Position numbers and translations under genes: made by a program | Notes under the pieces: generated by a model | Told to the model about the DNA's origin: nothing | What the model saw: only the letters and a program-made list of their open reading frames with translations | The model's database searches: none | IMG/VR virus record: IMGVR_UViG_3300025846_000019 | Span: 1-49,077 of that record | Reading direction: 5' to 3' (one strand) | DNA: 49,077 nt | Source of the DNA: a virus | Shown here: piece by piece, positions 1 through 49,077 of the stretch | Numbering within the stretch: the first letter of the stretch is position 1 | How the letters are laid out: each line of letters starts with the position of its first letter

Positions 1-146
1 TAGGTTGAACGTCAGGTGTAACGGGCATGACAAGCATGACAGGAGTGATAGGAGTGACGGTTTTCCCGCCGAGTTTCGCCCACTCATCGCCCCACGTGAG
101 CGTCATTATTGAAACAGCCTGTTCAAGCAGTTGCTGTGTTTGGTCA
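1..146. repeat. Direct terminal repeat, left copy (circular join)
   Basis: Bases 1-146 match 48932-49077 with one difference: position 20 is A here and position 48951 is G. The holin-like frame continues through the join and ends properly at 48906, so the molecule was circular or circularly permuted when assembled. The overlap is most likely an assembly redundancy; a physical terminal repeat is possible but would normally be identical. Confidence 0.9.
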
Positions 147-18385: not shown

Positions 18386-20874
18386 CAGTCTTCCCCCTTG
18401 TCGATGTCCTTCTCTGAATAGACATAATTTCCATTCGTGGCAAGGAGCATGGCAGCTACCCGAGCCGCGGCTATGTCCCCAAACTCGCCAGTCGCCCCGA
18501 AGACCTTATCCCGTCCGACCTGTGGACCCAAGACCACGAACTCCTGCTCTACTGCGCAGCCATACCCCGTCAGGAAGGAACCTATGATGCGCTCAACGGG
18601 TATTTGTGCTGCGAACATCATCGGGACGGACGAGTCACTTGAACTCTCCGGCTCACAGAACGTGGTTGCCGTATCAAGGGAGAGGGAGAAGGATGACATG
18701 GGTGACAGTTGTGCTTGACCAAACCCCCTTGTGAGCGACCGCGTTCCCCCGAAGATATCCTTGACGACAGATGGCTCAACTCCCATGCCACGGAACAGGG
18801 TCAATGATGTGATGCCCTTGTCTGCGAAACTCCTCTGTGTCGTAACATACATCGCTTTCAGGAATGCGTCGACGAAGTCCTGATTGCCCCCCTGTGCCAA
18901 GAAGTCCATTGCGCGTCGTGCCGTGTCCTCCGCCTTGAGGAAGTCCACATAGGACGCATTGAGACCGAACACCCGCAGGGCTTCTTCCTGTGCGGCACAG
19001 GAGATGGCATCACCACTAGATGAGGTCACGGCCCATGAGTGGATGAGCATGTCAACCGCGTTGTGGATATTGTCCTCATAATGGATTGGCTCTGCCGTTG
19101 CCTTGTCTCTCCGTATATCCATCATGGCAGCGACTATCTCATAAGCATCCCCGTCCTTGTACCCCGCTGGAAGGAACTCCGTGATGGCATCCGCAATCTT
19201 ATTCGTGACGACATCCTTCTGCCGATAAGATTCATTCTTTGCCACCTCACCTTCAATGATGATGGCAAGGTTCTCATTATTGAACCGTTCAGTCACGGCC
19301 AGCACAGCATTGGGATTATCTTCCTGCTCCTTGAACTCCCTGTCAGCATCAAACACGGACCCGTCTGCCATTGTCCAGATGCTGCCAGTCCTGAGATTGC
19401 CAGTCCCGACCTCTCCCTTGTCTACCGTGAAGTCACGCCACTTATCAAACTGCGCGTTCTCACCAATGGCTTGTGTATAGATGGAGTCAATAGCTCGCTG
19501 GTCGCGCTCACGCAATTCAGTAACCCGCACCTCGAACCGACGCTGTTCTTCTACATTGGCGACGATATCCCCATAGAAACTGCGAATCTCGCCGATGGTC
19601 ATGTGAAGAGTCTCAAAGATGAAGTGCTCCTCCCTTGCCGCCGTTACCTTGTCCGCCATCTCATCCCCATAGAAGATTCGGATTTCCTCAATGGATTTGT
19701 AGTCTTGTGTCATGAGGACATCAAACTGGGTCGTTATCCCCTTGTCCACCATCTCCTTCCTAGCCGCTGCGACCTCATCTGCCACCGCGTCCCCATAGAC
19801 GTTACGGAGTTGGTCGATAGTCCAGTAGCCGTTATACTCTGGCGTCAATGCTCCCTGTGTCGCCTTGAACTCCTCAAACACCTTGGCTTTTGCTGCCTCA
19901 GACGCCTTGAAGGATTCTACCGCTTGGTCTGCGACTGCCTGTATGTTTGCTTCTATGGCCTCTGGTGCCATCGTTGCCAGTTCTTCATCTGTGGGAAGCA
20001 TCACGGTCAGTGTCGGGTTCTTTGCTACCATGAGAGCCATCACCTTGGGAGAGCCAACCTCGCCGTTGAGGAACGCCCGCATGGATTCCTTGCTTGGCAT
20101 CTTGGGTGAGGCCGTACACCCGCACCACGGATGATAGGGTGGCAGGAACGCGTAGTCCATCGGGACTTCAATGGACGCGCCCGGGCCATCCCCGATTTCC
20201 TCGCCGCAGATGTCACACTCATAGCCCGTATCTGACCTGCTGAGGATGATGGTGTCAATGTATCCAGTGTCTGTCCACTGTTGTCTCTGCGCTACGATGT
20301 GGTTCCGCTTCACTTGGTCAACCCACAGACGACGAGTGTTGTACCCGACGTTTGCCCGACCCTTCTCAGTCAACAATTCTGCCAGTTCGTCCTTGGTCTC
20401 ACTGTACGCCCAGTGTTCGGTCTCCGACTGCTTGATGATGTCATTGATTTGATTCTGTGCATCCTTCGTGGCGTCCCACAGACGGTTCGAGATGTTGAGG
20501 CCGAGTGCTTCCCTTTCTCCCTCTATCTGTTTCCAGACTCCTTCACTCCACTCCGTATTGAACACGCCGCCAAGTTCTGCTGCTGTCGGGAATGCCGCTC
20601 CGACTGAATAAGGAAGACGGTCAGGGAGAGAAGCAATATCTGCAATGCCTTTGTCCTTGACCATATTGACCTCTTGCCACACATCCTTGTCAAGTTTCTG
20701 TGCCGTGTCCTTTGCCCATGCCTTGCTTTCCGTCTTGACACCATCTTCAATGTCCTCCATCGCTTCTTCACTCTCATCATCTGGAAGCAGGGCAAGGATG
20801 CGCATGACATAGTCCTTCAGCGCGCCATTGGCCTGAGTAAGTGCGAGACGCGCTATCTCGTTGAGCGGTTTCAC
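18385..20874 (-). CDS. Minor head protein (MuF-like) with ADP-ribosyltransferase domain
   Basis: 829 residues, much longer than a plain MuF protein. Residues 1-260 are helical and end in the MuF-type zinc motif: C220, C223, then H248, C251, C253. Residues 350-450 hold three related helices with an R-x-(F/V)-YGD core. Residues about 560-690 are helical, and 690-785 carry an R-S-E ADP-ribosyltransferase pattern: R695 in LFRGMG, SSFS at 727-730, and EQE at 776-778. Such proteins sit inside the head and can be ejected with DNA to modify host proteins. The start is a GTG overlapping the portal TGA. Confidence 0.8.
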   Translation of the reverse strand: MKPLNEIARLALTQANGALKDYVMRILALLPDDESEEAMEDIEDGVKTESKAWAKDTAQKLDKDVWQEVNMVKDKGIADIASLPDRLPYSVGAAFPTAAELGGVFNTEWSEGVWKQIEGEREALGLNISNRLWDATKDAQNQINDIIKQSETEHWAYSETKDELAELLTEKGRANVGYNTRRLWVDQVKRNHIVAQRQQWTDTGYIDTIILSRSDTGYECDICGEEIGDGPGASIEVPMDYAFLPPYHPWCGCTASPKMPSKESMRAFLNGEVGSPKVMALMVAKNPTLTVMLPTDEELATMAPEAIEANIQAVADQAVESFKASEAAKAKVFEEFKATQGALTPEYNGYWTIDQLRNVYGDAVADEVAAARKEMVDKGITTQFDVLMTQDYKSIEEIRIFYGDEMADKVTAAREEHFIFETLHMTIGEIRSFYGDIVANVEEQRRFEVRVTELRERDQRAIDSIYTQAIGENAQFDKWRDFTVDKGEVGTGNLRTGSIWTMADGSVFDADREFKEQEDNPNAVLAVTERFNNENLAIIIEGEVAKNESYRQKDVVTNKIADAITEFLPAGYKDGDAYEIVAAMMDIRRDKATAEPIHYEDNIHNAVDMLIHSWAVTSSSGDAISCAAQEEALRVFGLNASYVDFLKAEDTARRAMDFLAQGGNQDFVDAFLKAMYVTTQRSFADKGITSLTLFRGMGVEPSVVKDIFGGTRSLTRGFGQAQLSPMSSFSLSLDTATTFCEPESSSDSSVPMMFAAQIPVERIIGSFLTGYGCAVEQEFVVLGPQVGRDKVFGATGEFGDIAAARVAAMLLATNGNYVYSEKDIDKGED

Positions 20875-22322
20875 TTAGTCGGCGGGAAAACCTTGGGAGG
20901 CATGGGGTTCAGGGCTGAGGCCTGTTGTGCAAGGGCAAAGTCCTGTTCATCCTTGACCTTTGCCTCTGCATCTACTTCGTCGACGATGGTTGCCGCTTCC
21001 GTCTCATCCAAGCCGCGCCGCATGTGGTAGCGAATCTTGGAGATGAGGCCGGCCTTGTACTCCGCCATGTCATTGATGAACGAATCACCCTTGAACGCGT
21101 CCTTCCACTCCAGTGTTACCTCTGCTGTAACAGACTGCATGAGACAGGCAAGGTTGAACATGTCTTCCCATGCCTCGCCGAAGGTTGTCTGTGCTTCCTC
21201 TACCTTGTCGCTGAGTGGTCCCGCAATCTCCTGAAGTGCCACGCCCGAGGGAACTGCCTGTCCTTTCAAGTAAGCAACGGGGGTCTGAGTGCAGTTTGCC
21301 ATGTCATCCGTCAACTTGTCACAGTAGGCGATGAACTGTGTCAGGTCATCGGGAGCAATTCTCCCGAGTTGTGTCGTAGGGGACGGGAAGTTCCAGACCG
21401 TCCACGGGTCACGACTTAGTTTGGGGACGGCTTCAAAGGGGTGCTGTCCTTTCCATGCTGCCTCATACTCGAGTTGGTTGTACCCCGTGACCCAAATCTG
21501 CCCTGCGGCAGAGAAGGTTGCCCTGAGAGCCAGTTCCTGTTCTGCCCTATCCTTGTCTATCTGGATGGGAAGCGCAGAGAGCAGTTCACTGTTGCCGAAG
21601 TCACCCTCATCTGGACGGTTGCGGAAGTGGATGATGGGGATGCGACCCCAGGCATACGGGATGGTGTCTGGTTCCCCGTCCCCCAAGTATGGCTCCCATG
21701 AACCCGTATCCAGTGTCACGATGCCGTCAATGGTTGTCCAGATTCCCGCGCCCCCGTTCATCGTAGAGACGAATCGCTCCAGATGGTCGGGGTAGTAAAT
21801 GTCTTTCCTGCGGAAGAACTGGACATCCCCCGTTGCTGTCCCGTCGACCAAGCCCTGAACATCCAGCCACTCAACCTTGCACCAGAGCATCTTCTGAGAG
21901 CCATCCTGACTGTAGACGGGTCGCACGTTGATGGGGTCGAGGACTTGCATGGACGGCACGACTTCGCCCGGCCACAGGCGCACATACGAATCCCCATACT
22001 TGGCTCCTGCCTTGTGGACACGGGACTGGACAAGCGGGAAGTGGTTCAACTTGGCGATGAGGTCAACCTTGTCCTGTGCCGTAGCGGATGTGATGGAGGA
22101 GACGCGCAGTTTGGAGCAATAGGTGTTCACGACCAGAGCGCAGAGGTTGCGGACGACGCCATACTCCTCCAAGGCTGTCTCCAGCAGGGTAGGGAGCGGG
22201 ACGAGTTGCTTCCCGTCGTAATAGGTGTCATACGCCTCATAGCGTTCCTTCGCTTCTGTCTCTGCCGCCATGACCATACGGGCAAAGGACATGTCCACTT
22301 CATTGATTTGTGCGATAGCCAT
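20871..22322 (-). CDS. Portal protein (SPP1 gp6-like)
   Basis: 483 residues from ATG 22322, preceded by AGGAGG within the terminase stop. Typical phrases are an early EAYDTYYDGKQLVPLP, ALVVNTYCSKL and KYGDSYVRLWPGEVVPSMQV, then IPIIHFRNRP and FGNSELLSALPIQIDKDRAE. The acidic C-terminus is disordered. It forms the 12-subunit ring through which DNA is packaged and ejected. It comes after terminase and before the MuF-like gene, the usual order. Confidence 0.9.
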   Translation of the reverse strand: MAIAQINEVDMSFARMVMAAETEAKERYEAYDTYYDGKQLVPLPTLLETALEEYGVVRNLCALVVNTYCSKLRVSSITSATAQDKVDLIAKLNHFPLVQSRVHKAGAKYGDSYVRLWPGEVVPSMQVLDPINVRPVYSQDGSQKMLWCKVEWLDVQGLVDGTATGDVQFFRRKDIYYPDHLERFVSTMNGGAGIWTTIDGIVTLDTGSWEPYLGDGEPDTIPYAWGRIPIIHFRNRPDEGDFGNSELLSALPIQIDKDRAEQELALRATFSAAGQIWVTGYNQLEYEAAWKGQHPFEAVPKLSRDPWTVWNFPSPTTQLGRIAPDDLTQFIAYCDKLTDDMANCTQTPVAYLKGQAVPSGVALQEIAGPLSDKVEEAQTTFGEAWEDMFNLACLMQSVTAEVTLEWKDAFKGDSFINDMAEYKAGLISKIRYHMRRGLDETEAATIVDEVDAEAKVKDEQDFALAQQASALNPMPPKVFPPTK

Positions 22323-22332
22323 CACAGACCTC

Positions 22333-23559
22333 CTAGAGATTGTTGAAGCCGCCAAGGAACTGGTTCTGCCGCATATGCCAGTAGACGAGAGCGAAGGCAC
22401 AGACGGTATCGTCATGCTCCCCCTCTACAGCAGCATAGCGGATATTGCCAGCCCGTGTCAATTCATATTCAAACGAGGACAGTTCCCCCTCCAGCTCAGG
22501 ACAGTGCGGGAAGGTCGCGTCACGTTGTTCCAATGCCACAACCAGCGTCTCAATCAACTGCTGCTTGCTCTGTTGGGTAAAGACATAGCCCTCAATCTTG
22601 AGACCAAACCCCTCTTTCTTTGCTTGCTCGAGAATCGCGTCCCCTACGCCCGTACAGTCGAGCAGTCCTGACGCCCAGTTGTACCGCTTGCAGATGTCGA
22701 CAAAACGGGTAACTTGGAGACTGTAGTCCAGATTGGAAGCGCGCCACTGATAGACGAGATGGTGACTCGCGCTGTCGATGACGTAGATGACAGAGAAGTC
22801 CTGATGCTTCGCAGGGTCCCATCCGACAAAGTAGCGATGTCCCTCCTGTGGTTCCTCCCATGTGCCAGTGATACAGTTCTGGACGTTGTGGAACACGCCA
22901 GCCGCTTCCTCCAAGAACTCGGCTCCGTACTCTTGCCGGAACACATCATCAGGCAGGGTGCGTCGGGCTTCCTCAATCTCGCCCGGGTCCATGTAGGGAT
23001 TCGTCCATGCAGGGAGCGACCATGATTTCCACTCGGGGAACTCAGGGTCTTGTCCGCGCAGGTACAGATGCCAGAAGTAGTTCCTGCCCTTGGGCGTCGA
23101 ACTGAGGATGGCATGTCCTTTGGTGTCAGACAGGGAAGGACGGAGTTGATTCTCCCACGTTTCCTTGTCGATGAAGGCAGCCTCGTCCACAATCATGAAG
23201 CCGATACCCTCTCCACGGAGTGCGTCCCCTGCTTCTGCAGACTTGAACTCAATCGTGCCGCCAGACTGGAGCATGATGCGCTTCTCGTTCTTGTGGTTCT
23301 CGTCGATGGCTTCACTGAAGTGCTTCTGGATGAGGCGGTAGGCACGGGCAGTCTGTGCTTTCGTCTTGCTGACCCACCATGCCGGATAGCGACCGTCTTC
23401 CCATGCATACTTGACGATTTCGTTGATGTCCAAGTCCGTCTTGCCCCACCGTCTGCCAGCATTGACAACACGGAAGCGGTGGGTGTCTTCGTCGATGACA
23501 CGTTCCAAGTCAGTCGGATTGTAGAGTCGTATCTTCTTGGGGGCAGACAAGACCATCAT
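22333..23559 (-). CDS. terL: Terminase large subunit
   Basis: 408 residues, full length. Walker A NAGRRWGKT (33-41), Walker B FMIVDEAAF (121-129), coupling motif SSTPKG (153-158). RNase H-like nuclease acidic residues are D248 (GWDPAKHQDF), D301 (DCTGVGD) and D383/D384 (EHDD). ATG 23559 overlaps the small subunit stop (ATGA). It drives packaging and cuts concatemers. The packaging type (cos, pac or terminal repeat) cannot be settled from the sequence alone. Confidence 0.93.
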   Translation of the reverse strand: MMVLSAPKKIRLYNPTDLERVIDEDTHRFRVVNAGRRWGKTDLDINEIVKYAWEDGRYPAWWVSKTKAQTARAYRLIQKHFSEAIDENHKNEKRIMLQSGGTIEFKSAEAGDALRGEGIGFMIVDEAAFIDKETWENQLRPSLSDTKGHAILSSTPKGRNYFWHLYLRGQDPEFPEWKSWSLPAWTNPYMDPGEIEEARRTLPDDVFRQEYGAEFLEEAAGVFHNVQNCITGTWEEPQEGHRYFVGWDPAKHQDFSVIYVIDSASHHLVYQWRASNLDYSLQVTRFVDICKRYNWASGLLDCTGVGDAILEQAKKEGFGLKIEGYVFTQQSKQQLIETLVVALEQRDATFPHCPELEGELSSFEYELTRAGNIRYAAVEGEHDDTVCAFALVYWHMRQNQFLGGFNNL

Positions 23560-43331: not shown

Positions 43332-43359
43332 TTGACAATGTGAATAAAAAGTTTATATT
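43332..43359 (+). promoter_or_regulatory. Rightward promoter
   Basis: TTGACA (43332-43337), 16-base spacer, TATATT (43354-43359). Drives the plus-strand operon. Confidence 0.8.
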
Positions 43360-43365
43360 GAGTAT

Positions 43366-43401
43366 GGTGGAAGGAACTAGGGGCGAAGCCCCTATACCAC
43401 C
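43366..43401 (+). promoter_or_regulatory. 5'-end hairpin of the rightward transcript
   Basis: Outer GGTGG (43366-43370) / CCACC (43397-43401) and inner TAGGGGC (43378-43384) / GCCCCTA (43388-43394) with a GAA loop. It begins at the expected first transcribed base. Confidence 0.6.
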
Positions 43402-43450
43402 GAGACCCGAACCCGAAGGATGCACCTTGAGAAGTGACAGGAGGAGTGAG

Positions 43451-43675
43451 ATGCAAAGAGCCAAGGAATTGAAACAACAGGATAAGACGTGGTCAGAATA
43501 CCTTGAGCGTACCTTGCGGGATGCAACTGGAATTGAGGGAATCAAGGTGACCGCGAACAGGAACTTGGTCTATGTGATTGAGATGGACGAGAAAGAAGTG
43601 GATGAGATGGTCGATGAGAACATGGAGTCCATGAAAGAAGAGGATTACGCCAAAGCTCACCCTGAGGAGGAATAA
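43451..43675 (+). CDS. Small acidic protein, rightward operon gene 1
   Basis: 74 residues from ATG 43451 after AGGAGG; earlier in-frame ATGs lie before the transcription start. MQRAKELKQQDKTWSEYLER is helical, followed by strands and an acidic end. No family recognised. Confidence 0.6.
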   Translation: MQRAKELKQQDKTWSEYLERTLRDATGIEGIKVTANRNLVYVIEMDEKEVDEMVDENMESMKEEDYAKAHPEEE

Positions 43676-43676
43676 C

Positions 43677-43880
43677 ATGGTTGGACCGAACCTAATGCCG
43701 ACCCCGAAGTGGTTGACCCCGCAGGAAGTGATTGCGGAGAACGTGGCTTGGCTGAGACAGATTGCCAGAGATGGAGCAGAACGTAGCTTCGAGAAACTGG
43801 ATGCAGACCTGAGAGGGATTGCAGACGAGATTGAGGAGAGTGTGGCAGAGATGGCGAAAAAGACGGAGGTCGAGAAATGA
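43677..43880 (+). CDS. Small helical protein, rightward gene 2
   Basis: 67 residues, ATG 43677 after GAGGAGG. Helical and acidic (VAWLRQIARDGAERSFEKLD). Unknown; single helix bundle possible. Confidence 0.55.
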   Translation: MVGPNLMPTPKWLTPQEVIAENVAWLRQIARDGAERSFEKLDADLRGIADEIEESVAEMAKKTEVEK

Positions 43881-44137
43881 AACAGAGGCAAATAGTCACA
43901 GTATCAGACTTGCATGCTGGATTGCATAACACTTTACGCGCCTTCTTTCATGGCAAGATTGACGAGAGTAGCGTCCTTGACCGTGTACAATTCATGGCGA
44001 TGCTCGCCTACCCGACTGAGGAGGCACATCGGGTACAACGACAGATGGACGAGGCGCGTGAGTGCTATCAGAATGACGATGAAGCCACAGTTCAAGACTT
44101 CATCCAAGCATTGAACACTATTGAGCAAATCATATAG
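43877..44137 (+). CDS. Small protein, rightward gene 3
   Basis: 86 residues, ATGA-coupled. MKQRQIVTVSDLHAGLHNTL then acidic helices. The segment VSDLHAG resembles the start of metallophosphatases but no further metal motifs follow, so I give no function. Confidence 0.55.
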   Translation: MKQRQIVTVSDLHAGLHNTLRAFFHGKIDESSVLDRVQFMAMLAYPTEEAHRVQRQMDEARECYQNDDEATVQDFIQALNTIEQII

Positions 44138-44147
44138 AGGAGGAGTG

Positions 44148-44405
44148 ATGATATTCCCGAACGGATTGACGGAGGAACAGACGCACGACGCGGATGTGGA
44201 CTATCGCGGTGATGAGGAAAAGCGGGACAGGAAAGAGCGGGAGATGAAAAGTCTTGTGTCCTTTGACGTGGTGAGGGAACTGTGGCATCACCACATCCTG
44301 TCAGAGACGCGAACGCCGAGAGGGTTGCGACTGAACATCCTGATGACCTATGGTGAAGCGAAGAAACTGGTCGAGTTGTTGAAGAAGGCGGAGGTAGAGG
44401 AATGA
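44148..44405 (+). CDS. Small charged protein, rightward gene 4
   Basis: 85 residues from ATG 44148 after GGAGGAG. Acidic and basic patches (YRGDEEKRDRKEREMKSLVS), then strand-helix. Unknown. Confidence 0.55.
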   Translation: MIFPNGLTEEQTHDADVDYRGDEEKRDRKEREMKSLVSFDVVRELWHHHILSETRTPRGLRLNILMTYGEAKKLVELLKKAEVEE

Positions 44406-44683
44406 TTGAATGGACGGTCTCCAAAGAGGACATGAATCTGATACTCGCGATTACACTACGGGCAGAACGCATGGGAATCGCGGGCAAGCCCCAACGGACG
44501 AGAGCACTCATGGACCTTACTGCCTGTCATGCCAACGGGACACCGCTCCGGCTGCCTGACCTGCTCCATGCTGCCGACGGGGACTTCATCCATGATATTG
44601 CTGGAATCTGCGCACACATGAACAGGGAAACGGGGCAACTGCAAGACTGTTTCCTGCCACGATATGCTGCCAAGGGGGAATGA
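44402..44683 (+). CDS. Small protein, rightward gene 5
   Basis: 93 residues, ATGA-coupled. MIEWTVSKEDMNLILAITLR, helical, with a short DLLHAADGDFIHDIAGICAH segment. No family recognised. Confidence 0.55.
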   Translation: MIEWTVSKEDMNLILAITLRAERMGIAGKPQRTRALMDLTACHANGTPLRLPDLLHAADGDFIHDIAGICAHMNRETGQLQDCFLPRYAAKGE

Positions 44684-44684
44684 C

Positions 44685-44900
44685 ATGATTGAGGGATGCG
44701 GACCATTCTTGACAAGGGTGAGGAACATGCGTGACAAACAGAAGGAAATCGTGGATTCAGAAACGAGAGTGAACTTCTCGAATGCCAAGAACTACTCTGT
44801 TCTCGACATAGAGAAGGAAGCCCTATCCGTCCTCTCTGGCATCGTGAGAGTCGCGGAAGCAATGCTCCTTGGCGATGGTGATGAACATGACGCGGTATAG
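44685..44900 (+). CDS. Small protein, rightward gene 6
   Basis: 71 residues from ATG 44685 after AAGGGGG. MIEGCGPFLTRVRNMRDKQK then helix. Unknown. Confidence 0.5.
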   Translation: MIEGCGPFLTRVRNMRDKQKEIVDSETRVNFSNAKNYSVLDIEKEALSVLSGIVRVAEAMLLGDGDEHDAV

Positions 44901-45180
44901 GGTCTATATTGCCGGCCAGCATCCGACGATTCTCCCGATGGTCATCATCAGTCCTGACGAGAAGGATGCGTTGATGATAGACGAGAAAGAATACCGGCGG
45001 CAGATTGTCGGTGCAATCAGACACATCCTGTGGAGCCTGAGAGAGCGTGACTTCCAACTGTACTGCTTCAAGGAGACGTATGATGCACGGTGGAAGGAGT
45101 GGAAACGGGACAGCATCGTATGGGCTGCCGGACGGGTCGGTTGGGACGGGTCATCGCTGCGTCCTACGGGTTCACTGTAA
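44887..45180 (+). CDS. Small protein, rightward gene 7
   Basis: 97 residues from ATG 44887, overlapping the previous gene. MTRYRVYIAGQHPTILPMVI and a Trp/Arg-rich C-terminus. It ends at the terminator, inside the repeat element at 45170-45215. Unknown. Confidence 0.55.
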   Translation: MTRYRVYIAGQHPTILPMVIISPDEKDALMIDEKEYRRQIVGAIRHILWSLRERDFQLYCFKETYDARWKEWKRDSIVWAAGRVGWDGSSLRPTGSL

Positions 45181-45188
45181 GGGTCAAG

Positions 45189-45224
45189 GGGGTTGGTGGT
45201 CTATCGGGACGGCCAACCCCTTTT
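45189..45224 (+). terminator. Rho-independent terminator of the rightward operon
   Basis: GGGGTTGG (45189-45196) pairs with CCAACCCC (45213-45220), followed by TTTT. It separates the convergent plus and minus operons. Confidence 0.8.
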
Positions 45225-45243
45225 CCTATCACCTGAGAGGGTG

Positions 45244-45783
45244 CTAGACGGTTCGAGTGACAAAAGCTTTGTTGAATCCCGTTATTCCCTTCGTCATGAT
45301 TTCCAAGAAGTCATCCCGTGTAAAGTCGGATAGTCGGAAGATTTCCTCTTTCGTCATTCCCAGTTGCTTCTCGATTTCAGGGACGGTCTCTCCCTTGTCG
45401 AGTAGTTTCTTCACGACGACTTTCATCGGCTCGAGCAGATGGGTTCCCCGCGCGCGATTATGCGTGATAGTACCATAGATGTCTTCCTCCTCCGTTGCAT
45501 GAGTCACGATGACACAGGGAATCTTCCCACCCGTGAGGGACTTCAATGGTTCCTCACCGAGAATGAGCCAGCGATGATAGCCGTCGATGATGGTCATGTC
45601 AGGACGGATGACGATGGGCATCGTGAAGCCGTTGGTCAGGATGGACTGCCGGAGCAGGTCAAGGTTGACACGCGTGACCTTGTTTGGATTGTAGTCATTC
45701 GGGATAATCTTGTCTCGGTCGATGAACTGGATATGACGGACAGCACCAAAGATGTCTTTTACCTGCTCATGTTTTGTTTTCAT
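45244..45783 (-). CDS. ParB/sulfiredoxin-fold protein (IbrB-like)
   Basis: 179 residues, last gene of the late operon. An N-terminal ParB-like domain (IIPNDYNPNKV; DGYHRW at 67-72; NRARGTH at 109-115) is followed by a helical C-terminus with an HTH-like segment (EIEKQLGMTKEEIFRLSDFT). The DGxHR and NRxRGxH motifs are those of the ParB-sulfiredoxin superfamily, including IbrB-type proteins that pair with PAPS-reductase-like partners. The partner here is the previous gene, overlapping by ATGA. It could act as a kinase or nuclease-like enzyme or as a DNA-binding regulator; the exact reaction is unknown. Confidence 0.8.
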   Translation of the reverse strand: MKTKHEQVKDIFGAVRHIQFIDRDKIIPNDYNPNKVTRVNLDLLRQSILTNGFTMPIVIRPDMTIIDGYHRWLILGEEPLKSLTGGKIPCVIVTHATEEEDIYGTITHNRARGTHLLEPMKVVVKKLLDKGETVPEIEKQLGMTKEEIFRLSDFTRDDFLEIMTKGITGFNKAFVTRTV

Positions 45784-46907
45784 GCGATGTTACTCCTTTC
45801 TTTTGAGCCGACCTTCACGACCTTTATCATCATTGCACGCAATGTCCTCCCCTTCGGGTCACCGTGTGTCAGTGCCTCATCAATGGTCTGCCAGTCCTGG
45901 TCCTGAAAGAAGGGTGAGAATTTCAACAAGAATCGTCGGTATCGGTAGGGTGACTCTCGGAGATGGACGGTCTCGAAATATTTTGGGATATCCGAGAGCA
46001 GTTTCATCACGTGGTTGCGAGCAAGGACGGGGTCTTTTATGCCCTCGAGTTCCTTGCGCTTCTTCGTTTTCCCCTTGAACATCTCCGAGTCCCAGTAGAG
46101 CGCAGCAAGATAGGCATTGGGTTCCCGTCTCACGATGGATTCCATCAGACCCGGGTACAAGGCGCCGAGTTGGACGAGAGAAGCCGCCGTATCAATGGAG
46201 AAGAATTGTGAGATGCGGAGACGGTTCTTCGGGATACCGACTTGATACATCTTCAGATAGGCCTCAGGGAACTCGATGTGACGATTCTTGATGTAGAGCC
46301 AGACGTCCCCGTCCGTCCAGTCATAGATTGGGAACGCGGCATGACCCCGAAAGATGAAGTTGTTGCTCGCCCCCTTCGCCATGAAGGTCAGTCGCTGGAC
46401 AGATTCACTCTCGCGGATGCCGATGATATCCAGCGAACCCTTCCCCTTACGGGCGAGGAATTGCTGGTAGCGGTCAATCCGTGGGATGAGCAGGGGGTCT
46501 TCCCGGGTAGCAAAATCGGGCGGACTCCTCACCCATTCCTTCTCCTTGAAACGGTCGAACAGGATGAATGACTCATCATTGGTGAGCGAGTTGAAACAGT
46601 TGTAATGCTTCATCTCCATTGCATACCAGATGAACTTGATGTCGCGCTGGAGACAGAGGAGTCGATACTTCTTGACGACCTCAATGACATCGGGATACAT
46701 GGCTTCTTCATCAATGAACAGGACGGTCGTATTGCTAGTATCAATCCTTCCTTCATCCTTGAGGCACAGGATGAGGTCAAGCAAGCAGAGAGAATCCTTC
46801 CCACCCGAGAAGGATACCGTGATGGGACAAGTATTCGTGAACAGTCCGATGATACGCTGTCGGGCCGCTTCGACAACATCAATGGTGAGATAGGTCTTGA
46901 CTCTCAT
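45780..46907 (-). CDS. PAPS-reductase-like (IbrA-type) protein
   Basis: 375 residues, ATGA-coupled on both sides. The pyrophosphatase loop SFSGGKDS (32-39) shows an adenine nucleotide alpha-hydrolase fold of the phosphoadenylyl-sulfate reductase family. IGIRESESVQR and AAFPIYDWTDGDVW follow, as in IbrA and DndC-like enzymes. Family members move sulfur or adenylate substrates; DndC acts in DNA phosphorothioation. No iron-sulfur CxxC cluster motif of the DndC type is obvious. Late expression with two ParB-like proteins suggests a DNA or nucleotide modification, which is inference. Confidence 0.85.
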   Translation of the reverse strand: MRVKTYLTIDVVEAARQRIIGLFTNTCPITVSFSGGKDSLCLLDLILCLKDEGRIDTSNTTVLFIDEEAMYPDVIEVVKKYRLLCLQRDIKFIWYAMEMKHYNCFNSLTNDESFILFDRFKEKEWVRSPPDFATREDPLLIPRIDRYQQFLARKGKGSLDIIGIRESESVQRLTFMAKGASNNFIFRGHAAFPIYDWTDGDVWLYIKNRHIEFPEAYLKMYQVGIPKNRLRISQFFSIDTAASLVQLGALYPGLMESIVRREPNAYLAALYWDSEMFKGKTKKRKELEGIKDPVLARNHVMKLLSDIPKYFETVHLRESPYRYRRFLLKFSPFFQDQDWQTIDEALTHGDPKGRTLRAMMIKVVKVGSKERSNIA

Positions 46908-47497
46908 GTTTCCTCTTGGACGTTGTCTCCCTCAAGATAGATAGTCTGTCCACAGTCAGGACAGAGGACGTACTTGCGATGATGGGAATCCTCCTGTGTT
47001 TTCGTGACAGGAATAGTGGAGTTCTCCGGCGCCTTGAACTTGTCCTGCTCCTCCTGCGGAATCTTGCCGTATTGTTCCATGCGCTGTGCGGCTTCTGTCG
47101 CCCCGATGACGAGCATCTTCATGTTCTCATTGTCGAAGCCCGGGATGTCGATGGCATTGTCTTCCGCGTAGACCTCTCGGATGAGTGCCTCGATTTCCTC
47201 ATAGTCATCCATGCCGAGGGAGTAGGTCTTGTTATCAGCAAGGACGAGACGCTTCTTCATGGCATCGGACATGCCCGTCATGCGAAGACAGTCCAACTTC
47301 TCATATCCCAGTTCCTTCGCGGCAAGCCACAACCCGTTCCCGACAAGGATGACGTTCTTCTCATCAATCACGACGGGGCGGGTCTGCTTGAACAATTCCA
47401 GACTCTTTTTCAATTCCGCAATCTGGTTCTTCCCGTGCTTTCTGACCTGATGTGGGAACAGGGTCAGTTTGTCAATCAGGATAGATTCAGTTTTCAC
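46904..47497 (-). CDS. ParB-like protein with C-terminal CxxC
   Basis: 197 residues from GTG 47497, overlapping the symporter TGA (GTGA). Residues 1-130 follow the ParB-like nuclease pattern (LFPHQVRK; ILVGNGLWLAAKELGYEKLD; LVLADNKTYSLG). The usual GHGR is GNGLW here, so the conserved Arg is missing. Residues 140-175 are linker and 176-190 hold CPDCGQTIYL, half a zinc ribbon. Proteins of this form often sit beside phage DNA modification genes. Function in this cassette is unknown. Confidence 0.75.
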   Translation of the reverse strand: MKTESILIDKLTLFPHQVRKHGKNQIAELKKSLELFKQTRPVVIDEKNVILVGNGLWLAAKELGYEKLDCLRMTGMSDAMKKRLVLADNKTYSLGMDDYEEIEALIREVYAEDNAIDIPGFDNENMKMLVIGATEAAQRMEQYGKIPQEEQDKFKAPENSTIPVTKTQEDSHHRKYVLCPDCGQTIYLEGDNVQEET

Positions 47498-48909
47498 CTT
47501 GCCCCCTCATATTTCAACCAGAGTCGCCCCCTATAGACCAATGTCCCGAGACTGGCGATGACGACGGGAGAAAGGAAGGCCATAAGACTTCCTGCCAAGC
47601 GCATCGGGTTGTCTTTGGTGATGGTTCCGATGACAAAGAGACCTGTCCCGACCACCATACCTGTTATCATGCCGGCAATGAATCCCCTCTCATCAAACAT
47701 CACGTCCTTCAGGGTAAGAAGGGTCAGGAGGAAGACTGATGCACGGAATGTCCCATAGGTCAAGAACAGATTGGTAATTGTCATGGACGGCAGACTGGCA
47801 ATCCCTACGGCGAGTACGGCAAGGATAATCATTGCCCACCGGGTCATCGGGAGGGTAAACTTGACGGGGAACAGGTCAGAGCAAAGTGAGGCAAACGCGC
47901 ACAGATGCGAGTCGACCGTAGACAGTAGTCCTGACAGCATCATGAAGGCAAAGATATAGAGTGTCCATGGCGGGAACAGAGCACGGATGAACTCGAAGTT
48001 TGCAATACCGGCATTCTTCGCCATGAATCCCGAGCCAGCAGCGACGAATCCTATGATACCCATGCCGATAGGCACGATGGCAAACTGGATTGCAGCCCAT
48101 CGGAATGCCGTGACAATCTTGGACTTCTCCGAGGAGAAAACCCGTTGCCAGAAGGACTGGTCTCCCCACGGCCCTGACATGAGTCCGATAGCGGTGATGA
48201 TACCGAACGTCATCATGACCCCCCGACCTGCAACACTGAAGGGGTTCCCGAACTTCCCACTTATTCCTGCGAGACCGGTAAAGAGTGGAGTGAATCCCTT
48301 GGTTGCCAAGACCATAATGGTAAAGATAATGATGGGAATAAGGATGGTCGCCATCTGGAAGTCATCTGTAATAACTGAGGCACGGATGCCTGAATACACG
48401 GAATAGATGATGGCAATGGAGACCATGACGATGGATAAGACGATGGTCGGGACGTTTGGAGCAAGAAGGTGTAAGACAGTTCCCCCCGCGACTAACTGTA
48501 CTGCGGTGCTTAGGATGGAGAGAAAGGCCAACTCGAAGGTTGAGACGAGTTGAGTTTTCCGTGAGTAACGCTCCTTGAAGAATCCGGCGATGGTAAATCC
48601 CTTCGGGAAGACATCTCGTACCTTACGGGCAATCCTGCCGAAGAATATCAAGGTGACGACATTGGGGATGAAGAACCATAGAAAGCCCGTGATTCCTTTC
48701 TCATAGGCATACTGTGCAGAAACGAACAGGGCTGGTGCCCAAATCCAGGTAGCTGCGATGGAGAGAGACATCTTCCATGGTCCAATATTGCGGTCGGAAA
48801 CAAGGAAGTCTTCTTTGGTCGCAGACTTTCTCGTGAAGATGAGGGTCAGTCCCATGACGATAATGAAGTAGACGGCAAGTAACAGGAACGTACTCACGGT
48901 TCCGCTCAT
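47494..48909 (-). CDS. Sodium:solute symporter (SSS family)
   Basis: 471 residues, full length, with about 12-13 membrane helices. Family signs: YFIIVMGLTLIF in the first helix, DFLVSDRNIGPWKMSLSIAA, GDQSFWQRVF (249-258) and SGLLSTVDSHLCAFASLCSD (326-345), which corresponds to the helix 8 sodium-site segment. The closest known group by eye is the urea/amine-type branch, but the substrate is not determined. It is coupled upstream to the holin-like gene (ATGA) and downstream to a ParB-like gene (GTGA). A sodium symporter this size is very rare in a phage and appears intact. Confidence 0.9.
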   Translation of the reverse strand: MSGTVSTFLLLAVYFIIVMGLTLIFTRKSATKEDFLVSDRNIGPWKMSLSIAATWIWAPALFVSAQYAYEKGITGFLWFFIPNVVTLIFFGRIARKVRDVFPKGFTIAGFFKERYSRKTQLVSTFELAFLSILSTAVQLVAGGTVLHLLAPNVPTIVLSIVMVSIAIIYSVYSGIRASVITDDFQMATILIPIIIFTIMVLATKGFTPLFTGLAGISGKFGNPFSVAGRGVMMTFGIITAIGLMSGPWGDQSFWQRVFSSEKSKIVTAFRWAAIQFAIVPIGMGIIGFVAAGSGFMAKNAGIANFEFIRALFPPWTLYIFAFMMLSGLLSTVDSHLCAFASLCSDLFPVKFTLPMTRWAMIILAVLAVGIASLPSMTITNLFLTYGTFRASVFLLTLLTLKDVMFDERGFIAGMITGMVVGTGLFVIGTITKDNPMRLAGSLMAFLSPVVIASLGTLVYRGRLWLKYEGAR

Positions 48910-49077
48910 ACAGGTTTCTCCTCCTCTGGAGTAGGTTGAACGTCAGGTGTGACGGGCATGACAAGCATGACAGGAGTGATAGGAGTGACGGTTTTCCCGC
49001 CGAGTTTCGCCCACTCATCGCCCCACGTGAGCGTCATTATTGAAACAGCCTGTTCAAGCAGTTGCTGTGTTTGGTCA
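48906..49077 (-). CDS. Holin-like membrane protein, end of the same gene
   Basis: C-terminal part of the gene that begins at 412. The unique codons read TPEEEKPV then TGA at 48908-48906. This TGA overlaps the ATG of the symporter at 48909 (ATGA), so the holin-like protein and the transporter are probably translationally coupled. The overlap across the join is what ties the lysis module to the symporter cassette. Confidence 0.6.
   Translation of the reverse strand, partial: DQTQQLLEQAVSIMTLTWGDEWAKLGGKTVTPITPVMLVMPVTPDVQPTPEEEKPV
48932..49077. repeat. Direct terminal repeat, right copy
   Basis: Second copy of the 146-base overlap (matches 1-146 with one G/A difference). The unique genome length is therefore 48,931 bases. 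Both copies lie inside the holin-like gene. Confidence 0.9.

Follow-up and report, generated by a model that had tools for sequence, protein, structure and literature searches.

Why would a phage place a gene for a sodium:solute symporter (SSF) among genes for ParB-like and PAPS-reductase-like proteins? Pairs of the latter two are widespread in phages, and to our knowledge their biochemical role is not known. In the viral DNA analyzed here (49,077 nucleotides in total, hereafter the window), four such genes form a cassette, which a preliminary description had interpreted as a transporter that feeds a modification carried out by the products of the other three. Co-occurrence strongly supports the first part of this interpretation, a joint action of the transporter and the ParB/PAPS-like genes, while DNA modification as the outcome remains putative.

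All four genes lie on the minus strand, and their coordinates and overlaps were verified as previously described. The first encodes the SSF (47494..48909, 471 aa; PF00474, 1.1e-18; PHROG_20720, 1.8e-116). It is followed by the genes for ParB1, a ParB/Srx-like protein with a C-terminal CPxCG tail (46904..47497, 197 aa, GTG start; phrog_620, 3.8e-36), a PAPS-reductase-like PP-loop ATP-pyrophosphatase with SGGKDS at residues 34-39 (45780..46907, 375 aa; PF01507, 2.2e-12; phrog_2302, 2.2e-72), and ParB2, a second ParB/Srx-like protein, marked by the motifs IDGxHRW and HNRARG (45244..45783, 179 aa; phrog_2159, 2.5e-59). Directly upstream on the same strand is a Holin_LLH-like gene, which is split by the circular join of the record (5' part at 505-1, 3' end at 48906..49077), and which scored 24.2 bits against PF09682, just under the Pfam cut-off of 24.9. 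The record ends in a direct repeat of 146 bp with one mismatch between the copies (1..146 and 48932-49077), indicating a closed length of about 48,931 bp, with the holin-like gene reading through the join as a 176-aa frame. Along the operon, the genes for the holin, SSF, ParB1, PAPS-reductase-like protein, and ParB2 are joined by successive 4-nt overlaps (ATGA, GTGA, ATGA, and ATGA), and the gene starts in the cassette are preceded by purine-rich stretches.

Genes for the large terminase subunit (22333-23559, minus strand; phrog_2, 1.4e-40) and the portal (20871-22415, minus strand; phrog_104, 2.2e-46) head the late operon. As these, together with the major head protein and tape measure genes, lie upstream on the same strand, the cassette forms the promoter-distal end of this operon, in agreement with the preliminary description. 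Its boundary with convergent plus-strand genes is marked by a terminator-like hairpin (45180..45243; RNA fold -24 kcal/mol, z -2.7), for which a consensus scan gave no call. The identical gene order in more than 100 other cassettes and the end repeat make it very unlikely that the contig is chimeric between 47.5 and 49 kb.

The cassette is common in phages of the gut and rumen, with many copies in prophages, and its hosts include common gut genera. Unlike in the window, where it lies behind the holin-like gene, the cassette is positioned directly before the terminase in most sampled relatives, and the earlier notion of a late placement thus holds for the window but not in the same form for these. 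TerL was found within 3 kb of 9 out of 10 sampled cassettes, the tenth having a ParB-DNA methyltransferase fusion, and these terminases belong to several unrelated families. Neighbor clustering for another constant enzyme gave mainly terminase subunits downstream. In a cultured carrier, Faecalibacterium phage FP_Taranis, the cassette lies near a late regulator and the terminase.

A non-redundant set of related cassettes with 3.8 kb or more of upstream DNA numbered 107, composed of 106 cassettes (105 with transporter) and one locus, L005, from a separate scan; a transporter was thus present in 105 of them. In L306, one of the two exceptions, an SSF gene is found further upstream, with transposase-like genes in between. 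In L005 and in phage PJN03, no transporter lies near the ParB/PAPS genes, so that some lineages can do without the importer. A single-protein scan of viral contigs with the window SSF gave no match; an alignment-based search yielded 180 relatives, and in the SSF-seeded scan the full ParB1-PAPS-ParB2 set was found at 70 of the 71 loci with room for it. The same association was seen in whole bacterial genomes: in one family (250 genomes), the PAPS gene occurred in 3 genomes and an SSF gene in the same 3 (p 3.9e-7), and in a second (250 genomes), the PAPS gene occurred in 7, 4 with a short SSF-like transporter and 3 with a long SSF (p 9e-14). Long and short transporters were mutually exclusive in these whole-genome tests. 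The preliminary description had regarded ParB/PAPS genes without the symporter, or the symporter alone, as the mark of a chance association. Within the clade, one is almost never found without the other, and the association is near-obligatory. Outside it, no multi-transmembrane gene was found near distant IbrA-type loci. A search of open PMC papers returned no published description of a transporter-coupled ParB/PAPS set, in line with what had been supposed for a secondary transporter in such a system.

The window SSF covers the PF00474 profile in full (1-406 of 406) at 67.8 bits (gathering cut-off 22.8), and its relatives in the PDB are DUR3, CHT1, and vSGLT. It shares homology with these and with PutP over the transporter core, and the Ser-Thr motif of the sodium-site helix is conserved, but the window SSF differs from them in being phage-encoded and tied to a ParB/PP-loop set. 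Residues S330 and T331, which we take to be the equivalents of the sodium-site hydroxyl residues S340/T341 of PutP, are invariant across 45 phage SSFs. For both long and short SSF types, dN/dS was 0.04-0.20, indicating purifying selection.

Three types of transporter were found in the cassettes: the long SSF, a short SSF-like protein, and an ABC permease accompanied by an SsuA/NMT1-type binding lipoprotein. The short type is a reduced form of 331 aa, matched to SSF by hhalign (94%), and its predicted model is nearest to the choline transporter CHT1. Taurine/sulfonate importers are the nearest relatives of the ABC type, and the five loci of this type gave no ABC ATPase signature. As these transporters are interchangeable and one of them depends on a binding protein, solute import appears to be the conserved function, with the binding-lipoprotein version pointing to uptake. 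The cassette is thus very probably a transporter-dependent unit that imports a solute. Family-level hints at its identity conflict and support no single substrate: DUR3 (urea) and CHT1 (choline) for the SSF disagree with SsuA/TauC (sulfonate) for the ABC type.

The PAPS-reductase-like protein contains a PAPS_reduct domain, and its SGGxDS PP-loop motif shows little or no variation across 53 relatives. An AlphaFold model (pLDDT 83.6) matches PP-loop enzymes, and dN/dS against L002 was about 0.05-0.07 for the PAPS-like and ParB2 genes, which are thus likewise under purifying selection. True PAPS reductases (CysH) carry the C-terminal catalytic motif ECG(L/I)H. No such motif was found in the window protein, which is free of Cys beyond residue 104 (of 375), ruling out that it is a true PAPS reductase. 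DndC had been put forward as a related enzyme. This kinship stands at the level of the fold, but identity was rejected, as the protein scored 18.6 bits against TIGR03183 (cut-off 290.4), and none of the DndC cysteines (a 4Fe-4S set and a Cys dyad; PMC10853773) are conserved in the family alignments. A second PP-loop enzyme is added in about 70% of cassettes, though none was present in the window.

Both ParB proteins match ParB-like PHROGs and fall below the cut-off for partition ParB (21.6 and 20.4 bits against 58.45 for TIGR00180). The two cysteines of the ParB1 CPxCG tail are invariant in 12 relatives, and the IDGxHRW and HNRARG motifs of ParB2 are conserved among its relatives. ParB/Srx proteins can act as NTPase or nuclease (PMC10853773, PMC12839542), and DpdB, a ParB-like ATPase, participates in the insertion of dPreQ0 into DNA (PMC12839542).

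Taken as one functional cassette, the four genes would comprise an importer and an ATP-dependent modification module, whose enzyme types are suspected to act in DNA modification. In the reading that we favor, the cassette could well serve a late, import-fed modification of phage DNA prior to packaging. The symporter would raise the cellular level of a small molecule late in infection, and the PP-loop enzyme, or often two, would spend ATP to adenylate either this molecule or a DNA base. The ParB/Srx proteins would then bind NTP and DNA and direct the reaction onto phage DNA, ParB1 perhaps acting through its CPxCG tail, and the modified DNA, once packaged, would be protected on entering the next host. 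More tentatively, the imported metabolite itself might end up on the DNA, after activation by PP-loop enzymes and delivery by ParB/Srx NTPases, so that the chemistry of virion DNA would be set by the surroundings of the host. Against DNA modification, no base-synthesis enzyme was found among 20 further window ORFs searched.

The ParB/PAPS-like proteins might instead be an IbrA/IbrB-like co-activator of phage genes, with the transporter supplying or sensing an effector. As the preliminary description had noted, adjacent PP-loop and ParB-like proteins resemble the IbrA/IbrB pair of phages and prophages, and the records of relatives are so labeled. Identity between the PP-loop protein of the window and proteins with this label is only about 25-37%, however, and the cassette goes beyond the pair by a further ParB, in many cases a further PP-loop enzyme, and almost without exception an importer. 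A helix-rich segment in the C-terminal part of ParB2 that was matched to other proteins, and the late regulator near the FP_Taranis cassette, would fit regulation. We consider it rather unlikely nonetheless, as the presence of two PP-loop enzymes in most cassettes speaks for metabolic turnover, the three types of transporter speak for the need for a bulk substrate, and the window cassette closes the late operon rather than opening it.

A module for superinfection exclusion or anti-defense, with nucleotide pools or incoming DNA as its target, would suit the possible NTPase or nuclease activity of ParB/Srx proteins (PMC10853773, PMC12839542) and the many prophage copies, but is unlikely given that the genes come last in the late operon, or before the terminase in relatives, and not in lysogeny regions. 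Assistance to host sulfur or sulfonate assimilation during infection, suggested by the sulfonate-type ABC importer and the PAPS_reduct domain, is quite improbable: the CysH motif is absent, neither a desulfonating oxygenase nor a sulfite reductase is present in the cassettes, the solutes indicated by relatives of the SSF are different ones, and two ParB proteins are left unexplained. That symporter and holin jointly collapse the sodium gradient for lysis, as their translational coupling in the window might suggest, is very improbable, since most sampled relatives have the cassette beside the terminase and an ABC importer can substitute for the SSF. A chance neighborhood with an unrelated moron gene, for which the sole argument is that phages gain morons easily, is ruled out in practice by the co-occurrence across 500 genomes and 105 of 107 cassettes.

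The cassette also has parallels among other known systems. Late expression and DNA modification before packaging are known from mom of phage Mu, a timing that is only proposed for the cassette; Mom has no sequence relation to it and needs no importer. Phage-encoded nutrient uptake is known from cyanophage PstS, where it is regarded as nutritional support during infection. In the cassette, too, the phage supplies an uptake component, but one linked to a putative modification module. Dnd systems share a PP-loop ATP-pyrophosphatase (DndC) and have a ParB-family partner, DndB (PMC10853773), but the cassette lacks DndA, DndD, and DndE as well as the DndC cysteine set. Dpd systems likewise employ a ParB-like ATPase for DNA base modification (PMC12839542), but their DpdC and their TGT-like DpdA are missing from the cassette.

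The tightly linked importer narrows the ParB/PAPS problem, as it suggests that the module needs a solute from outside. A handle for identifying this solute is offered by the transporter, most of all where the ABC variant supplies a binding lipoprotein, and the function of the family thereby becomes testable. Should the solute end up on DNA, this would constitute a modification of phage DNA that draws on uptake from the medium. One further SSF gene, in phage record MT836430, has ATP-synthase-like ORFs beside it and was therefore taken as an ordinary bacterial gene rather than a member of the cassette.

The symporter gene is part of a compact minus-strand cassette in the window. As the preliminary description had proposed, the holin-like gene, the sodium:solute symporter (SSF, 47494-48909), ParB1 (46904-47497), the PAPS-reductase-like PP-loop enzyme (PAPS-like, 45780-46907), and ParB2 (45244-45783) are joined by 4-nt overlaps (ATGA, GTGA, ATGA, and ATGA). 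The symporter, which is of the long type (471 aa), matched PF00474 (1.1e-18, Pfam) and phrog_20720 (1.8e-116, PHROGs), the PAPS-like enzyme matched PF01507 (2.2e-12) and phrog_2302 (2.2e-72), and both ParB proteins were recognized as ParB/Srx-like (phrog_620 and phrog_2159). Positions 1-146 are a direct repeat of 48932-49077 (146 bp, one mismatch), and the genome is therefore closed, with a length of about 48,931 bp. The edge at the holin is not a true genome end; the holin frame crosses the circular join and continues into the symporter. Genes for terminase, portal, major head protein, and tape measure lie upstream on the same strand, so that the cassette closes the late operon, the place already ascribed to it. 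A stable hairpin (45180-45243, z -2.7) separates it from convergent small genes on the plus strand (43340-45180).

The suggested association between the symporter and the ParB/PAPS genes was confirmed in relatives, which were gathered from IMG/VR and GTDB genomes with the PAPS-like protein as query. A profile HMM was built for each component, with which all ORFs in the loci were searched. After removal of near-identical sequences, 106 cassettes had 3.8 kb or more of DNA upstream, and these contained a long SSF (66/106), a short SSF-like transporter (34/106), or an ABC permease (5/106); a single cassette (L306) had none in range. In that genome, the SSF is present further upstream, past ORFs that resemble a transposase and its ATPase partner. 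One locus excluded as redundant (L005) yet genuinely lacks a transporter, and with this locus added back, a transporter accompanies 105 of 107 cassettes. Reciprocally, a scan with the long SSF only yielded 80 loci, with ParB1-PAPS-ParB2 downstream in 70 of the 71 that had enough room, and a scan with the short transporter led to the same result. The cassette is thus a unit, although L005 and phage PJN03, with no transporter nearby, demonstrate that ParB/PAPS sets can exist without an adjacent one. In Eubacterium plexicaudatum (L306:4924-7063), the transposase-like and ATPase-like ORFs split the symporter from the cassette, and the second PP-loop gene is shortened. Another locus (L105), where the symporter and second PP-loop gene were found and ParB1 and the main PAPS gene were unrecognised, is possibly a decaying cassette.

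As an unbiased check, whole genomes of two bacterial families, for which Acetatifactor muris (L300) and an Oscillospiraceae MAG (L348) served as seeds, were searched with the profiles (250 genomes each). In the first, strong PAPS matches (>500 bits) occurred in 3 genomes, and strong SSF matches (>600 bits) in the identical 3, on the same contig. A further 16 genomes of this family had weaker IbrA-type relatives (~107-141 bits), and none of the 16 had a cassette-type SSF. In the second family, the PAPS gene was present in 7 genomes, with a short transporter in 4 and a long SSF in the remaining 3, and no genome among the 250 had either transporter without it. Transporter and PAPS gene were 0.6-1.6 kb apart. 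Because the genomes are related and counts small, the Fisher p values (3.9e-7 and 9e-14, respectively) are indicative only. In one genome (G470, contig C1:49580-50725), the PAPS gene contains a single in-frame TGA, reflecting either decay or an assembly error.

The transporters are exchangeable. The N-terminus of the short type (~331 aa) corresponds to the SIAATW motif in the SSF core, and a profile comparison matched this type to the long SSF with 94% probability; its AlphaFold model (pLDDT 86, pTM 0.82) had the choline transporter CHT1, a human SSF member, as best LeuT-fold match (TM-score ~0.65-0.69). In the ABC type (L237, L250, L251, L253, and L261), a BPD_transp_1 permease, closest to SaoP, TauC, and SsuC models, and an NMT1/SsuA-family binding lipoprotein replace the symporter upstream of ParB1 or the second PP-loop gene. 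No ABC ATPase signature was found in the DNA of these five loci, and the ATPase may be borrowed from the host. In two phage contigs (L258 and L259), the SSF follows ParB2 rather than preceding ParB1. ABC transporters that depend on binding proteins are importers, and the ABC variant therefore predicts import as the most likely shared function. In 45 phage SSFs, the predicted sodium-binding residues do not vary, and strong purifying selection acts on both the long and the short transporters (dN/dS 0.04-0.20).

The PAPS-like protein retains the SGGKDS motif. It has no C-terminal CysH cysteine motif, and the cysteine set of DndC has no counterpart in it. Its model (pLDDT 83.6, pTM 0.72) matched tRNA thiolases, FAD synthase, TilS, PAPS reductase, LarE, and GMP synthetase, at uniformly low TM-scores (~0.3 on query), which limits the assignment to the PP-loop class. 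Another PP-loop enzyme (phrog_424-like) lies between transporter and ParB1 in 75 of 106 cassettes and is missing from that of the window. An invariant CPxCG tail forms the C-terminus of ParB1, and the IDGxHRW and HNRARG motifs of ParB2 are strongly conserved; neither protein reached the cut-off for partition ParB.

The cassette is best read as an importer that supplies a solute for ATP-dependent modification of the phage's DNA at a late stage of infection. Rival readings are regulation in the manner of IbrA/IbrB, a known PAPS-reductase-like/ParB-like pair, sulfur metabolism, and conflict functions. The ABC variant suggests the direction of transport, and the PP-loop class would imply adenylation chemistry. 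DNA as the putative target is suggested by the ParB folds, the position by packaging genes, a methyltransferase gene near the L333 cassette, and the example set by DpdB, a ParB-type protein (PMC12839542). A survey from 2025 of proteins with the ParB-CTPase fold shows binding of CTP, ATP, or GTP by phage members as well as their fusion to DNA methyltransferases; a search of its text gave no mention of PAPS-like partners, and none of its transporter mentions reads as a link to a PAPS-like/ParB set (PMC12704722). Among openly available PMC papers, no account of a ParB/PAPS set coupled to a transporter was found.

In most of the relatives sampled, the cassette lies close to the packaging genes. 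The cultured Faecalibacterium phage FP_Taranis has, in sequence, a RinA-like activator, the transporter, ParB, PAPS, ParB, a small gene, and terminase. A terminase large subunit was found at most 3 kb downstream in 9 of 10 randomly sampled cassettes, and clustering of neighbour genes agrees with this placement. Since these subunits belong to several PHROG families, the cassette has passed from one phage lineage to another and yet stayed beside the packaging genes. The tenth had a ParB-DNA methyltransferase fusion instead (L333:11718-12914, phrog_498), about 1 kb downstream. The window differs from its terminase-adjacent relatives in that the cassette lies behind the holin.
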